Shown: in pieces, positions 13,216 through 35,148 of the stretch
Layout of the letters: the number at the start of each line of letters is the position of its first letter
Numbering within the stretch: the first letter of the stretch is position 1
Source of the DNA: a virus
DNA length: 44,877 nucleotides
Direction: 5' to 3' (one strand)
Virus record (IMG/VR): IMGVR_UViG_3300028615_000018
Location: 1-44,877 of that record
Notes under the pieces: generated by a model
Seen by the model: the letters and a program-made list of their open reading frames with translations, nothing else
Told to the model about the DNA's origin: nothing
Database searches by the model: none
Position numbers and translations under genes: made by a program

Positions 13216-13671
13216 ATGCAAATAGTCCCCATAACACTGAAAACAGCAAAAGAGTTTGTAGCAGAGCACCACAGACACAATAAGCCACCAACAGGGCATA
13301 AGTTCTCAATCGGACTAGATAAAGACGGCATACTAGTAGGAGTAGCCACGGCAGGCAGGCCGGTAGCTAGGCATTTTGATGACGGTTTTACATTAGAGGT
13401 CAATAGGACCTGTACTACCGGAGAACCTAACGCTAATGGTATGCTTTATGGAGCTATATGGCGATGTGCTAAGGCCATGGGCTACAGAAGGTTAATTACT
13501 TACACTCAGGCTGACGAAACAGGTGCATCACTTAGGGCAGTTGGATGGAACAGAGTAAAGGAATTACCGGCAAGAAAGAGTTGGGCTGAATCTAGTGTGA
13601 AGTTTAGACATAAAAAAGACCCCGTAGGAAATGGTGGCGTAGCCAGAGTTCTATGGGAAATTAAAAGATAG
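13216..13671 (+). CDS. XF1762-family acetyltransferase-like protein
   Basis: A 151-residue protein with strong family features: AKEFVAEHHRHNKPP, GHKFSIGL, VNRTCTTG and GYRRLITYT, ending RVLWEIKR. This family has a GNAT-like fold and is frequent in phages and mobile elements, but substrate and role are unknown. Starts 8 bases after the endolysin; the ATG follows a weak AGGTATTGGT. Confidence 0.8.
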   Translation: MQIVPITLKTAKEFVAEHHRHNKPPTGHKFSIGLDKDGILVGVATAGRPVARHFDDGFTLEVNRTCTTGEPNANGMLYGAIWRCAKAMGYRRLITYTQADETGASLRAVGWNRVKELPARKSWAESSVKFRHKKDPVGNGGVARVLWEIKR

Positions 13672-22225: not shown

Positions 22226-23512
22226 ATGACCGAAGTAAAAAATGTAGTGGACACTGTTGTGAGCAACACCCCAAGTGTTGACCAGTTAGTATCAAGTATG
22301 GTTTCCAATGATGTATTCATGGGTTTCTTGGCACTGTCCTTGCTAGGGATGGCGGCCATGGGTATAAAGACCACTGCTAAACCTGTGTTTGAGTTTATTA
22401 AGAGACAAACAAGTGTTAAGCTGGAGATAACTAATAATGATGACGCATTTATATGGTTCTCCAAGTGGCTGGAGGACAGAGGTGCCACTAAGAAAATTAG
22501 GAGACTGAGAACCAGCAATTTATATGTAAAAGGAGAATGCCCAGTGGCCCTTGGCGAGGGCAGGCACTTCATGTTTATAAAGGGGCGACCTTATTTTATC
22601 TCCAAAACCATGGGAGATACTAAGAGCAAGGCAGTATTTGAACAATACACTGTTACTTACTTTGGACGCAGCAAAGAGCCCATTATGCGGCTACTAGGAG
22701 AGCTTCAAGATATGGTAAGAGGTGATGAAAGCTCTACAAGGGTGTTTAGCTGGGTGTCTAATGGCTGGGCTCTGGTGTCCAAGGATTGCAGCAGGAAAAT
22801 GGACACAGTGGTGTTGGACCCTAGCCAGAAGAGCGACATAGTAAGTGACTTAGGGTGGTTCATAGGTAACAAAGAGTGGTTTACAGAGAGAGGCGTCCCC
22901 TACCGAAGAGGTTACTTATTTTATGGCCCTCCTGGGACAGGGAAAAGCTCTTTAGTGTCCGCTTTAGCTAGTCATTTTAACAGAAACGTATACTCTATAA
23001 ACCTTAAATCGCTGTGCTCTGATTCTGAGCTTCAAGACGCCTTCTTTAGTGCCTCCAGAGAGGGAATAATCCTTCTGGAAGACATTGATTGCGTGGACGT
23101 TGTTGCTGCTAGGTCTAGCTCTCTTCGGCACCCTGTAGGGGCCAATAACAGCGCATTGGGGGAGGACAATGATAGCGACAAACCTCTCATTCCTATGGGG
23201 ATAACTTTGTCAGGGCTTCTCAATGTTATTGACGGAGTAGGGGCTTCGGAGGACAGAGTCATAATCATGACCACGAATAACCCTGATAATCTAGATAAGG
23301 CCCTTATGCGGCCAGGAAGAGTAGACAGGAAGTGGGAAATTGGCCTGCCAGACTGGCATGCTAGGAAAGAAATGTATATCAGGTTCTTTCCAGAAGATGA
23401 AGAAGGCAAGGCAGAGGCTATGGCCAACAAAACAGTGGACTACACTCCGGCAGAGATGCAATGCCTGTTCATGCAAAACATTAGCGGAGAAGATCAAAAT
23501 GCCAGTATTTAG
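22226..23512 (+). CDS. Bcs1-like AAA ATPase, membrane anchored
   Basis: A 428-residue protein laid out like mitochondrial Bcs1: an N-terminal transmembrane helix (about 30-47, VFMGFLALSLLGMAAMGI), a Bcs1-N-type middle domain (from DDAFIWFSKWLEDRG), and a C-terminal AAA module with Walker A GPPGTGKSS (234-242), Walker B ILLEDID (282-288), LSGLLNVIDGV, and IIMTTNNPDNLDKALMRPGRVD as sensor and Arg-finger region. Mitochondrial Bcs1 moves a folded Rieske protein across a membrane; phage and bacterial homologues have unknown roles. GGAG at 22213 sets the start. Confidence 0.85.
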   Translation: MTEVKNVVDTVVSNTPSVDQLVSSMVSNDVFMGFLALSLLGMAAMGIKTTAKPVFEFIKRQTSVKLEITNNDDAFIWFSKWLEDRGATKKIRRLRTSNLYVKGECPVALGEGRHFMFIKGRPYFISKTMGDTKSKAVFEQYTVTYFGRSKEPIMRLLGELQDMVRGDESSTRVFSWVSNGWALVSKDCSRKMDTVVLDPSQKSDIVSDLGWFIGNKEWFTERGVPYRRGYLFYGPPGTGKSSLVSALASHFNRNVYSINLKSLCSDSELQDAFFSASREGIILLEDIDCVDVVAARSSSLRHPVGANNSALGEDNDSDKPLIPMGITLSGLLNVIDGVGASEDRVIIMTTNNPDNLDKALMRPGRVDRKWEIGLPDWHARKEMYIRFFPEDEEGKAEAMANKTVDYTPAEMQCLFMQNISGEDQNASI

Positions 23513-29840: not shown

Positions 29841-30057
29841 GTAGTTATGGCTGAGCAGAGTCTGTAGCAAAGACTATCCAAGTTAAGTGCATATGCGACA
29901 AATGCGGTGTGGGCTCCATGGACAATAGAAGGGGCAGGAGCTGAATATGAGTACAAATACGATTAAAGGCATCACAATATAAGTCACTGGAAAGTTTTAA
30001 AAAACGATGCACCACCCAGAATTAACCTCATTGCCTAACTTTAAGGAGGGATAAACC
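29841..30057 (+). other. 217-bp gap, likely gene remnant
   Basis: There is no intact gene. In one frame, about 29856-29941, a short Cys-containing stretch (VKCICDKCGVGSM) is open without a start codon, while a 6-codon MAEQSL frame overlaps it, as though a small gene had been broken by a frameshift. AAGGAGGG at 30043-30050 belongs to the next gene. Confidence 0.35.
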
Positions 30058-31260
30058 TTGCATATACTAGAAGTCGAGATATCTAACACTAAGAAAATTA
30101 AAGCCTTCAGAGTAAAAATTGATGGCCGCAATATGCGTGTAGCTGGAGACACAGGTCAAGGAAAAACAACAGCAATCTCTGCTTTATGGGATATTATCGA
30201 GAAGAAAGCCGATGCCCTAACGCATGGCAAGAAGAAAGGCCACATTAAAATCACCTTGGGTGGCGGTAACAAAACTATTGTGGCCAAGCGAGTAAACACT
30301 AAATCAGCCTCTACTATTAAGTTGTCTGATGCTGAAGGAAAAGCTGTTAGTATCAAAGACTTCAAACTGATGATAAGTGACCTATCTGTGAACCCTCACA
30401 AGATAGCGAACATGAAACCCAAGGAGCAGGTGGCCACGTTACTTAAAGCCGCCAACCTTGGAGACTTTGACATGGAGAGTGTAGATGGCGATATTGCTAA
30501 ACTTGAGCAAGAGCGCTTAGAACAGTACAGAATTGCTGAAAATTACAAGCCAGGGCCTGAACCCGAGAAAGTTGAGCGTGTCAACACATCCGACCTTGTT
30601 GAACAAGTATCCGCTGCTAATGAAGCCCAAAGGGTGTATAAAGACAAAAGTAAACTGTTGAGTAGCCTCGAAGAGGAGAGGCAGGAGTTGGAAAGCCGTC
30701 TTGAAAAAGTAAATGAACGGATTGCCGCAGGCAAGCCAATTGTAAAGAAATTGAAGAGCAAGTTAGTAGATCCAGAGCCTTTAAAAGAAAAACTCCGCAA
30801 TGTAGAAGAGATAAATTCGAAAGCGAATACATATGAAAAATGGCTGGAAAAGAATAAAAGTTACAAAGACCATAAACAACGCCATGCGGACATAAACGAA
30901 AAAATAAGAGAACTTAGAGATGCCAAAGAAGAGGCCCTTGATAATGCCGATTGGCCTTTAGAAGGGTTGTCGATAGAAGATGGTGAAATCCTATACAACG
31001 GGTCTTTGCTATCCAACCTTGGGCAGAGTGAGCAGATGCTTGTCTGTGCAGCCCTGGCGATGGAAGATATTAAAAACCACCCTGTCCGGGTCGTAAGGAT
31101 GGATGGTATTGAGAGCATGAGCACAGAGGATTTTGACAAACTGGAATCCATGTTTAATGGTAATGGTGTGCAAGTGTTGAGTTCGAGGGTTGCTAGAAAG
31201 GACGTAGAAGAAGGTGAAATAGAGATTGTGGAGGGAGAGTATGTCGATGGCAGACTTTAA
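30058..31260 (+). CDS. SbcC/Rad50/RecF-like ATPase
   Basis: A 400-residue protein. Walker A is G30-DTGQGKT37, preceded by an N-terminal strand as in Rad50/RecF (LEVEISNTKKIKAF). A coiled coil spans about 150-290. The C-terminal lobe has an ABC-type signature-like LGQSEQMLVCAALAM and Walker B VVRMDG, then VLSSR. It is short for Rad50 (SbcC about 1050, T4 gp46 560), and no nuclease partner is adjacent. Likely role in DNA end processing or recombination. TTG start follows AAGGAGGG. Confidence 0.75.
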   Translation: MHILEVEISNTKKIKAFRVKIDGRNMRVAGDTGQGKTTAISALWDIIEKKADALTHGKKKGHIKITLGGGNKTIVAKRVNTKSASTIKLSDAEGKAVSIKDFKLMISDLSVNPHKIANMKPKEQVATLLKAANLGDFDMESVDGDIAKLEQERLEQYRIAENYKPGPEPEKVERVNTSDLVEQVSAANEAQRVYKDKSKLLSSLEEERQELESRLEKVNERIAAGKPIVKKLKSKLVDPEPLKEKLRNVEEINSKANTYEKWLEKNKSYKDHKQRHADINEKIRELRDAKEEALDNADWPLEGLSIEDGEILYNGSLLSNLGQSEQMLVCAALAMEDIKNHPVRVVRMDGIESMSTEDFDKLESMFNGNGVQVLSSRVARKDVEEGEIEIVEGEYVDGRL

Positions 31261-31321
31261 ATTTGCAGTTTGGCTAGCTATACTTAAGATTTACCCGGAG
31301 CATGATGGAGAGGCAGAATGA
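31241..31321 (+). CDS. 26-residue peptide between ATPase and PcfJ genes
   Basis: ATG 31241 follows a strong GGAGGGAGAGT; the ORF overlaps the ATPase end by 20 bases and its stop overlaps the PcfJ ATG (ATGA at 31318). The product (MSMADFKFAVWLAILKIYPE...) has a short amphipathic helix. Strong signals on both sides support translation. Confidence 0.55.
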   Translation: MSMADFKFAVWLAILKIYPEHDGEAE

Positions 31322-32706
31322 CGCAAGAAAGGAGATTTGTTGAGATTGTAGCCGACCATGAGAATAAGAGAGTGACAGTTGGTAATGTGGTCTTTGACAG
31401 GCCATATTTTTTCTTGCATGGTAAAGTTAACCGGCCCTCCTCAGCCCCCCGGTGGTTGAGACCTCTACACCAAGACATCATACGCAAGCTGGATGGATGC
31501 TTCTATGCGACCCCAGGTCCTCCGTATGAAAACAAAAAAACCCCACCTGCCAAAAGTCCCGAACATAATTGCTACCTCGTGTTTACAATGATACTAGGTG
31601 TAAGGCCAGCAAAGTTTGTCCGTATCTTCAATGCAAAAATGTTTGATGTGTTTCTTAGGGAGCATAAATACTGGGCTAAAAAATTTTGTTACAGTAACCG
31701 TGGTTTGAATACCAGAAGAGCTGAAAAGCTACTAGCGTCTGTAGACCTGCTTAACCAATGCAAAGAGGATGGTATAGAAAATGTCACTCCCTTTGTCTTT
31801 CATGCCAACCAATCACCACAGGAGTTAAAACAGCGTCTGGGGAAATCCGCATGGAAAAAGATATGTAAAAATAGCTTTCATAGAAACAAGATATTAGCAG
31901 ACAGGTATTCCGGTATACTAAGTGCCGACCCCCTCACTAGTGGACATGTTCATAAGCTTACTGCTGCGCTAGAAATGCCAACCTCGGCAATTAAATTTAT
32001 TCTTGAACCTCATTTGAGTATTGGAATCGATACTAAGTATGAGATTGTCCGACTCGCCAAGAAATTTAAACAACTGGCTCAATTGGATAAAAAGGGTACA
32101 ACATGGTCAAATATGTACTCCGATATATTGATTATGGCATCAAAACTAGAATATAAAAATATAAAGAAGGACATTAGAAAGGCTAGAAGCTTTGATGACA
32201 TAACGACCTTACACGACTCCCTGTCCACAAAGATGCAAGAACTAAGAGAAGCTGATTTTAATGCTGAATTTTCATGGTACAAGAACACTAAGTTGCCTAA
32301 GCAGTTTGAACACAACGGGTACAAGTTTACGCTACTGTCTTCGAAAAGGGAGCTACACGAAGAGGGCAAGAGACAAAAACATTGTGTCTACTCTTACGCA
32401 AGTTCCATGGCCGCAGGATCATACTTAGTGTACAAAGTGGGAGGGAAGGAGAGAGCTACACTGGGCCTTATCAGTGAGAGCGAGGGTTTCGGCGCCCCTG
32501 ATTACGATGATTACGACACCCAAGCGCAAAGAACGTGGATTGTTCAACAGATGTACAAAGCGTGCAATCAGCACGTCAGCAGTAATGCCAGAGACGCTGC
32601 CAAGCAGCTTGAAAAAGCTCTTAACAAAGAAGAGAACGCTACTAAAAAGATAAAAGGTGCAAAGGCAACAAATGTATGGTATGATGAGGCTGTCAACATT
32701 GCATAG
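31318..32706 (+). CDS. PcfJ-domain protein
   Basis: A 462-residue protein. Residues about 330-440 match the PcfJ family: FTLLSSKRELHEEGKRQ, then H355-C356-V-Y-S-Y, AAGSYLVYKVGGKERATLGL and a final helical part with a KACNQH segment. Residues 1-320 are a helical, basic region with no recognised domain. PcfJ-like proteins occur on conjugative plasmids and phages; their biochemical function is not established. Coupling to a Rad50-like ATPase suggests a DNA-related role here, which is inference. Confidence 0.72.
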   Translation: MTQERRFVEIVADHENKRVTVGNVVFDRPYFFLHGKVNRPSSAPRWLRPLHQDIIRKLDGCFYATPGPPYENKKTPPAKSPEHNCYLVFTMILGVRPAKFVRIFNAKMFDVFLREHKYWAKKFCYSNRGLNTRRAEKLLASVDLLNQCKEDGIENVTPFVFHANQSPQELKQRLGKSAWKKICKNSFHRNKILADRYSGILSADPLTSGHVHKLTAALEMPTSAIKFILEPHLSIGIDTKYEIVRLAKKFKQLAQLDKKGTTWSNMYSDILIMASKLEYKNIKKDIRKARSFDDITTLHDSLSTKMQELREADFNAEFSWYKNTKLPKQFEHNGYKFTLLSSKRELHEEGKRQKHCVYSYASSMAAGSYLVYKVGGKERATLGLISESEGFGAPDYDDYDTQAQRTWIVQQMYKACNQHVSSNARDAAKQLEKALNKEENATKKIKGAKATNVWYDEAVNIA

Positions 32707-32714
32707 GAGGATTT

Positions 32715-32855
32715 ATGAGAGAAGGATTTGAACTATTATTACTAATAGTTGTAACGGCTACTGTTGGAGCCATTGCCACTGGTACATGCCACGCAGTTTA
32801 TACTGCCATTAAAGGTTTTTTCACTAAGGATTATCGCGATGAAGACACAGACTAG
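32715..32855 (+). CDS. 46-residue single-TM protein
   Basis: ATG 32715 follows TAGGAGGATTT. One long hydrophobic segment (ELLLLIVVTATVGAIATGT) is followed by a charged tail ending DEDTD. It overlaps the next gene's start. Function unknown. Confidence 0.55.
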   Translation: MREGFELLLLIVVTATVGAIATGTCHAVYTAIKGFFTKDYRDEDTD

Positions 32856-33882: not shown

Positions 33883-35148
33883 TTAAGGCGGTGTTACCCA
33901 TCCGCAAGCCCAAGCAACGCCAGCAGTTAAAGTACCAGTTCCTGTGGGTACATGACTCAAAGTAATGCCAGAGGAACTCCAACTGTTTGTTCTCCAACCG
34001 GAGTTTCCTGAGTTGGGGCCTGACGAAGTATTATGCGTACCCACCATTGGAGCCGTTAATACAGTAAAGCTCGTTATAGGCCATGTCAAAGTATATGTAG
34101 AGTTGTTGTTTGTGAATGGGCTTCTCACCCACTGTAAACAAAGCCTTTGACCGGGGTTTGATGGGTTTTTTATACCATCAAATATGATATAGCCATCCTC
34201 TGATGAGCCATTTACATTTAAACTGTCTGCTGTTGTGGCACTATCAAGCCCAAGACCATCAATTACAGATGCAAGACCTGCCGGGGTTACTGCCCTTGAT
34301 GTATCTGAACCAGCCTGCGTCTCAGAATTAGTTGCAAGTTCTACAAGCCCTGTGCGGGATGACGTAGCCGTTCTGGCCAAAAGACCTTGAGGGGTTACAG
34401 CTCTCGTATCCGTAGACCCGGCAGCAACTTCTGAGCTGGAAGCTATTTCTATAAGCCCCCTTCTGCTCTCCGTAGCTGTTAAAGATGCCAAGCTATTTGG
34501 TGTAACAGCCCTAGAACCATCCGAGCCCGCCTGAGTTTCTGCATCCGTGGCAAGCTCAACCACACCCCTTCGAGACGTAGTCGCTGTTTTCCCGTTCAAC
34601 GTATCAGGAGTAACATACCTTGTGGTGTCTGTCCCAGTGTTAACCTCCGTCTGTGTTGCTATCTCGGACAGCCCACGTCTTGATGTGGTAGCTGTCAAGG
34701 ATGCCAGTCCAGATGGTGTCACCGCCCGGGATGTGTCACTGCCTGCTTGGGTTTCGCTGTTTGTTGCTAGCTCTACAAGCCCCTCTATGGATACTGTAGC
34801 GCTAGGCGTTGGCGGTGGGTACACACCCCATTGCGTGGGTGAAGCTGAGGGCTCATTACCAGAGTTGTCCGTTTTCGCTCTATAGATAAGCCCATCTACT
34901 GGGGAGGTGACGTAGCTTATGTTTGCCGAATAGTTTGTATCCGGGTCCCACTCAACAACGCCCCTCTCATTAATATGAGCAAAACCTTTTGTAAATAAGT
35001 TTTGAAGGAAGTTAAAATGTTCGTATGGTGGGATCTCTGATTCCCACCCCAAGTCAAACTTCCCAGGAGTTGTTACGTCTGGATCTACAACATCCGCTGG
35101 TGCTGCTCCGTCAGCCCATATTCTCGTTAATACTGGTTTATCTACCAT
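33883..35148 (-). CDS. Tail fibre protein with tandem repeats and gp53-like tip
   Basis: A 421-residue fibre. Residues 1-115 attach or fold at the base (EHFNFLQNLFTKGFAHINE, NEPSASPTQWGVY). Residues about 119-300 contain five repeats of ~36 residues of the type GLVELATNSETQAGS...SRAVTP.GLAS, a common phage fibre shaft repeat. The C-terminal ~90 residues (RLCLQWVRSPF... GVAWACGWVTPP) resemble the gp53-like receptor-binding tip. It is the last gene of the late operon and probably decides host range. Confidence 0.85.
   Translation of the reverse strand: MVDKPVLTRIWADGAAPADVVDPDVTTPGKFDLGWESEIPPYEHFNFLQNLFTKGFAHINERGVVEWDPDTNYSANISYVTSPVDGLIYRAKTDNSGNEPSASPTQWGVYPPPTPSATVSIEGLVELATNSETQAGSDTSRAVTPSGLASLTATTSRRGLSEIATQTEVNTGTDTTRYVTPDTLNGKTATTSRRGVVELATDAETQAGSDGSRAVTPNSLASLTATESRRGLIEIASSSEVAAGSTDTRAVTPQGLLARTATSSRTGLVELATNSETQAGSDTSRAVTPAGLASVIDGLGLDSATTADSLNVNGSSEDGYIIFDGIKNPSNPGQRLCLQWVRSPFTNNNSTYTLTWPITSFTVLTAPMVGTHNTSSGPNSGNSGWRTNSWSSSGITLSHVPTGTGTLTAGVAWACGWVTPP
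34242..34794 (-). repeat. Five tandem ~36-residue shaft repeats
   Basis: Coding repeats in the tail fibre; the first and last units are most alike (LVELATNSETQAGSDTSRAV in both). Unit number could change by recombination and alter fibre length. Confidence 0.8.

Follow-up and report, generated by a model that had tools for sequence, protein, structure and literature searches.

A recombination-type Rad50/SMC-head ATPase and a probably unrelated PcfJ-domain protein in one likely phage transcription unit

A virus genome fragment of 44,877 nt (record IMGVR_UViG_3300028615_000018), analysed over its whole length and called the window below, carries a Rad50-like ATPase gene closely followed by a gene for a PcfJ-domain protein. 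The ATPase is probably of a type already known from phage recombination, and PcfJ an accessory gene unrelated to it that is transcribed along with it. Gene overlap alone hinted at a new complex; the comparative evidence does not support one, and a false lead was thus averted. The ATPase family, phrog_1499, has been labelled 'unknown function'; it gains a recombination context and a non-canonical ABC active site, which may be useful to specialists. The features of the locus are as follows:

30043..30050, + strand: Shine-Dalgarno (SD) sequence of the ATPase gene, AAGGAGGG, 7 nt ahead of the TTG start
30058..31260, + strand: Rad50/SMC-head ATPase of 400 aa, phrog_1499 family, TTG start (phrog_1499 profile, AF2 model)
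31241..31321, + strand: 26-codon ORF, a possible translational relay, with the SD GGAGGGAG at 31230-31237; its TGA overlaps the PcfJ ATG
31318..32706, + strand: PcfJ-domain protein of 462 aa, N-terminal part helical, C-terminal PcfJ domain at about 323-443 (PF14284, AF2 model)
32715..32855, + strand: small protein of 46 aa, single-TM type, directly 3' of PcfJ (SD AGGAGG; maximum 19-residue hydropathy 2.2)

The coordinates of the three overlapping ORFs (the ATPase gene, the 31241 start and the ATGA at 31318) agree with those of a first-pass annotation of this DNA, and both of its domain names were right: structure comparison gives a Rad50/SMC-type head for the first large protein, and PF14284 identifies PcfJ in the second. 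On sequence grounds the ATPase and PcfJ genes are real beyond doubt, because the former matches phrog_1499 at E 5e-49 and the latter scores 47.8 bits with the Pfam PcfJ profile against a gathering cut-off of 25. The SD before the ATPase TTG at 30058 is strong, and the N-terminus of the protein aligns with the family start. The ATG of the 26-codon ORF at 31241 lies 20 nt within the end of the ATPase gene, and the PcfJ gene starts in a 4-nt overlap (ATGA) with that ORF at 31318, with its own SD (GGAGAGG) at 31307-31313. Good SDs and tight overlaps make it likely that ATPase and PcfJ are coexpressed. Such overlaps are ordinary in this phage. Of the 52 gene junctions that the + strand of the window contains, 13 overlap, and in five of these the overlap is exactly 4 nt. 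The GC content of the two genes (0.43 and 0.42) is close to that of the window (0.43), so base composition does not point to a recent acquisition of the pair.

The 26-codon ORF is compatible with chance. In the window, ATG ORFs of 20-60 codons that stand behind an SD number 19 on the + strand and 10 on the - strand, and a tblastn search of 50,697 phage records found no relative of this one even at E 10. A functional peptide is unsupported. The ORF would at most pass ribosomes over the 57-nt gap between the ATPase and PcfJ genes.

The ATPase matches the phrog_1499 profile over its full length (E 5.2e-49, residues 1-394 to profile positions 3-422 of 427). Its AF2 model (pLDDT 75) resembles the heads of SMC, Rad50 and RecF (best Foldseek E 7.5e-12), with a Z score of 15.5 and 3.6 A over 223 residues in the comparison with Rad50. 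Members of phrog_1499 in Streptococcus, Enterococcus and Arthrobacter phages are annotated as AAA ATPase, 'chromosome segregation protein' or 'MRE11'. The window protein is about 25% identical to them, and shares with its relatives the N-terminus, the length, a short coiled coil, Walker A and a displaced Walker-B glutamate. It differs in its signature (GQSEQ, SGSEQ in the family) and in adjoining PcfJ rather than an annealing protein.

Rad50/SbcC and SMC heads have the ABC head fold in common with the window ATPase (Z about 15), whereas the zinc hook, the adjacent nuclease, the conserved Walker-B DE and the H-loop His of Rad50/SbcC are without counterpart in it. The protein lacks a zinc hook, a CxxC in a long coiled coil, because its 400 aa contain a single Cys (C330). 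No Pfam nuclease of the Mre11/SbcD type, or any other, was found among the neighbouring ORFs scanned in this genome fragment. Given its Rad50/SbcC-like fold, the protein could still be SbcC in a split SbcCD, with the nuclease half encoded beyond the fragment, and the relatives pf16 and Slickus01 do encode a longer SbcC-like protein (phrog_77). However, the zinc hook is absent, the coiled coil is short, Walker B and the H-loop are altered, and phrog_77 has no match in the window; we regard a split SbcCD as distinctly unlikely.

Motif counts from 69 non-redundant phrog_1499 sequences bring out a modest novelty, namely an ATPase family without the canonical Walker-B glutamate and H-loop histidine. 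The Walker-A K is invariant in the 69 sequences (G30..GK36 in the window protein). The Walker-B D349 is present in 64/69, and the residue that follows it is K, D or G, never Glu (D349-G350 in the window protein). Three residues past D349, at E352, a glutamate is found in 64/69, so that D-x-x-E replaces the Walker-B DE. The H-loop position is occupied by Arg (R377) instead of His in 66 of the 69, and the signature serine is Gly in the window protein and in its closest relative (L031). In an ABC ATPase, absence of the Walker-B glutamate and of the H-loop histidine is expected to slow ATP hydrolysis or to shift it to a displaced catalytic residue. With both canonical residues missing here, we would expect the ATPase to hydrolyse ATP slowly, or to rely on the displaced glutamate E352.

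The genomic context of the family is that of recombination. Among 57 non-redundant ATPase relatives with enough flanking sequence, mostly from Firmicutes phages, a Sak4 annealing protein is encoded within 3 kb in 52, and a DUF669 protein within 3 kb likewise in 52. In the closest relative (L031, 41% identity) the gene comes after genes for ERF (E 1.3e-16), a YqaJ exonuclease (E 1.7e-19) and HNH proteins, and the Arthrobacter relatives adjoin either RecE/RecT or an exonuclease and an ssDNA-binding protein (SSB). Context thus links the phrog_1499 family to recombination, since its neighbours include annealing proteins of three unrelated types, Sak4, ERF and RecT. The link is partly known already: a survey of Firmicutes phage annealing proteins places sbcC next to sak4 in phages of streptococci, and also notes SMC/AAA ATPases beside recT (PMC8093625). 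In the window, itself a fragment, no annealing protein, SSB or exonuclease was recognised beside the ATPase, and a 5'-3' exonuclease is encoded 20 kb away.

We infer from the fold, motifs and contexts that the ATPase is a compact Rad50/SMC head of the phage recombination/replication type. It would act as a pair of such heads, hookless and with short coiled coils. ATP binding would close the two heads on DNA, giving an ATP-controlled clamp or loader. In other phages such an ATPase would serve the annealing protein, the SSB and the exonuclease. PcfJ would be a separate accessory gene, merely cotranscribed with the ATPase here.

The first-pass annotation had instead proposed that ATPase and PcfJ, possibly joined by the 26-residue peptide, work as a single complex, perhaps in recombination or anti-defence. 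The overlaps and the good SD at every start favour such a unit, as do two Firmicutes phages (L099 and L061) whose PcfJ and ATPase genes share one gene block, in the order PcfJ, DUF3102-type gene, ATPase; the L099 block has a PcfK-like gene before it and Sak4 and DUF669-type genes after it. Because these blocks hold both genes, PcfJ can live beside a phrog_1499 ATPase. The neighbourhood search that the annotation had suggested nevertheless found essentially no co-occurrence in other phages. phrog_1499 is present in 0/23 PcfJ-bearing virus records, and PcfJ in 2/42 phrog_1499-bearing records, the two just named. No P-loop protein is encoded within 400 nt of PcfJ in about 160 other loci (80 bacterial, about 80 viral), and none of the 57 other ATPase neighbourhoods shows PcfJ directly adjacent. 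phrog_1499 is also absent from the Vibrio and Shewanella phages that hold the nearest PcfJ proteins, and the Shewanella phage vB_SspS_KASIA carries the ATPase alone. One complex of the two proteins is accordingly unlikely, and their association appears local to this phage. The annotation's suggestion of recombination holds for the ATPase family, by context, and does not extend to a module of ATPase and PcfJ together. One further locus (L140) was considered as a second pair, with PcfJ and an ATPase 4.5 kb apart, and was rejected; its ATPase is a long SbcC-like protein.

The PF14284 match of the PcfJ protein covers profile positions 1-106 of 147. Over most of its length the protein is about 25% identical to PcfJ proteins of Vibrio and Shewanella phages, and the PF14284 domains of these phages and of bacterial mobile elements contain all of the invariant residues found in the window domain. 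In 62 non-redundant sequences E349, G350, H355, C356, Y360 and T381 are invariant, Q411 and N417 nearly so, and position 414 is G in most; the sequences had been collected with a loose EG..HC..Y filter, which in part selected for those positions. The protein is probably an enzyme, because the H-C and Q/N positions are invariant. The AF2 model of the domain has the element order b-b-a-a-b-b-b-a, and in a structure search with it GNATs took almost all of the first 50 places; the best match had Z 7.9 and 3.9 A over 104 residues. The likeness covers only the first half of the GNAT fold, and the best Foldseek E value, 0.67, is not significant. A true GNAT was rejected: sequence-profile comparison with GNATs (hhalign) gave a probability of 0.1%, equal to that of NUDIX and glyoxalase decoys, while a GNAT-GNAT control gave 99.7%, which leaves a hint of fold only. 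As a lead, the domain may resemble half a GNAT. Here too the novelty is modest: a group of invariant residues of enzyme-like character (EG, HCV, Y, T, QxxGxxN) in a domain whose predicted fold is half-GNAT-like. A literature search for PcfJ function found none, the matches being mostly C. elegans pCFJ vectors, and a survey of polyvalent proteins (PMC5512222) does not mention PcfJ.

An ATP-bound, barely hydrolysing Rad50-type clamp that switches a minimal GNAT-like PcfJ enzyme, as a complex dedicated to this lineage, is in our view highly improbable. Equally improbable is a phage-borne, defence-like pair for superinfection exclusion, similar to PARIS or Septu, in which the ABC ATPase would be the sensor and PcfJ the effector. 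The ATPase weakly resembles the ABC ATPases AriA (E 3e-4) and PtuA (E 1e-3), and the invariant H-C-Y-T-Q-N positions of PcfJ are of enzyme type. However, these similarities are no stronger than shared superfamily membership would give and fall short of the phrog_1499 match, the pair does not recur elsewhere, and the cognate AriB or PtuB effector is not beside the ATPase: PcfJ and two other scanned neighbours gave no PADLOC match. That scan revealed no partner gene for defence or anti-defence.

Viral PcfJ genes elsewhere have varied neighbours. PcfK is the only clearly recurrent one (5/69 scanned neighbours), and the 44.9-kb window has no PcfK (PF14058) partner. Ro60 TROVE/vWA, PARP and WGR domains also occur among the scanned neighbours, and in a 133-kb IMG/VR contig (L020, 2535-8367) the PcfJ gene is followed by one for a protein with a WGR-like N-terminus. 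DNA polymerase A is one family match among these neighbours; a gene for a large polymerase-like protein lies directly 3' of PcfJ in two phages (L014, 1199-3073, and L017). Short hydrophobic ORFs follow PcfJ in L002, L004 and L015, and not in L003 or L010. Those of the Vibrio phages (L002:6005-6121 and L004:5079-5225) resemble each other and are of the single-TM type, like that at 32715-32855 (+) in the window.

The gene order of the whole window parallels that of the complete phage vB_SspS_KASIA. In the window, genes for a primase/helicase, DNA polymerase A, a phrog_4477 protein, a 5'-3' exonuclease and a T5 A1-like transfer protein are followed by nucleotide metabolism genes, small ORFs, the ATPase and PcfJ, and then by tail genes on the opposite strand. 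The A1-like protein shares 49.5% identity with its KASIA counterpart and 52.5% with that of Pseudomonas phage pf16. KASIA_p048 is of the same family as the window ATPase and occupies the same syntenic place, at the end of the early block and immediately ahead of opposite-strand lysis and tail genes. The two proteins are 20% identical, and the whole KASIA genome is without PcfJ. Microcystis phage Mwe-JY26 was rejected as a syntenic relative; it carries neither ATPase nor PcfJ. The window has no near DNA relatives among phages, and a DNA search in distant mode returned only pieces of 140-268 bases, all outside the ATPase-PcfJ pair. Viral contigs yielded no close relative of either protein, and a plasmid search with both as queries found none.

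Three other genes of the window deserve mention. The 428-aa AAA protein at 22226-23512 (+) combines a BCS1_N domain (PF08740, E 2e-14) with an AAA core (E 1.6e-21). This architecture is that of BCS1, a mitochondrial chaperone, but here it is encoded by a phage. Just ahead of the A1-like gene, the ORF at 13216-13671 (+) weakly matches PF25680, the family of the Mom DNA-modification protein (E 2.7e-4, short of the cut-off). At 33883-35148 (-), a tail-fibre-like protein contains several imperfect repeats of the type ATTSRRGLVELATNSETQAGSDTSRAVTP.
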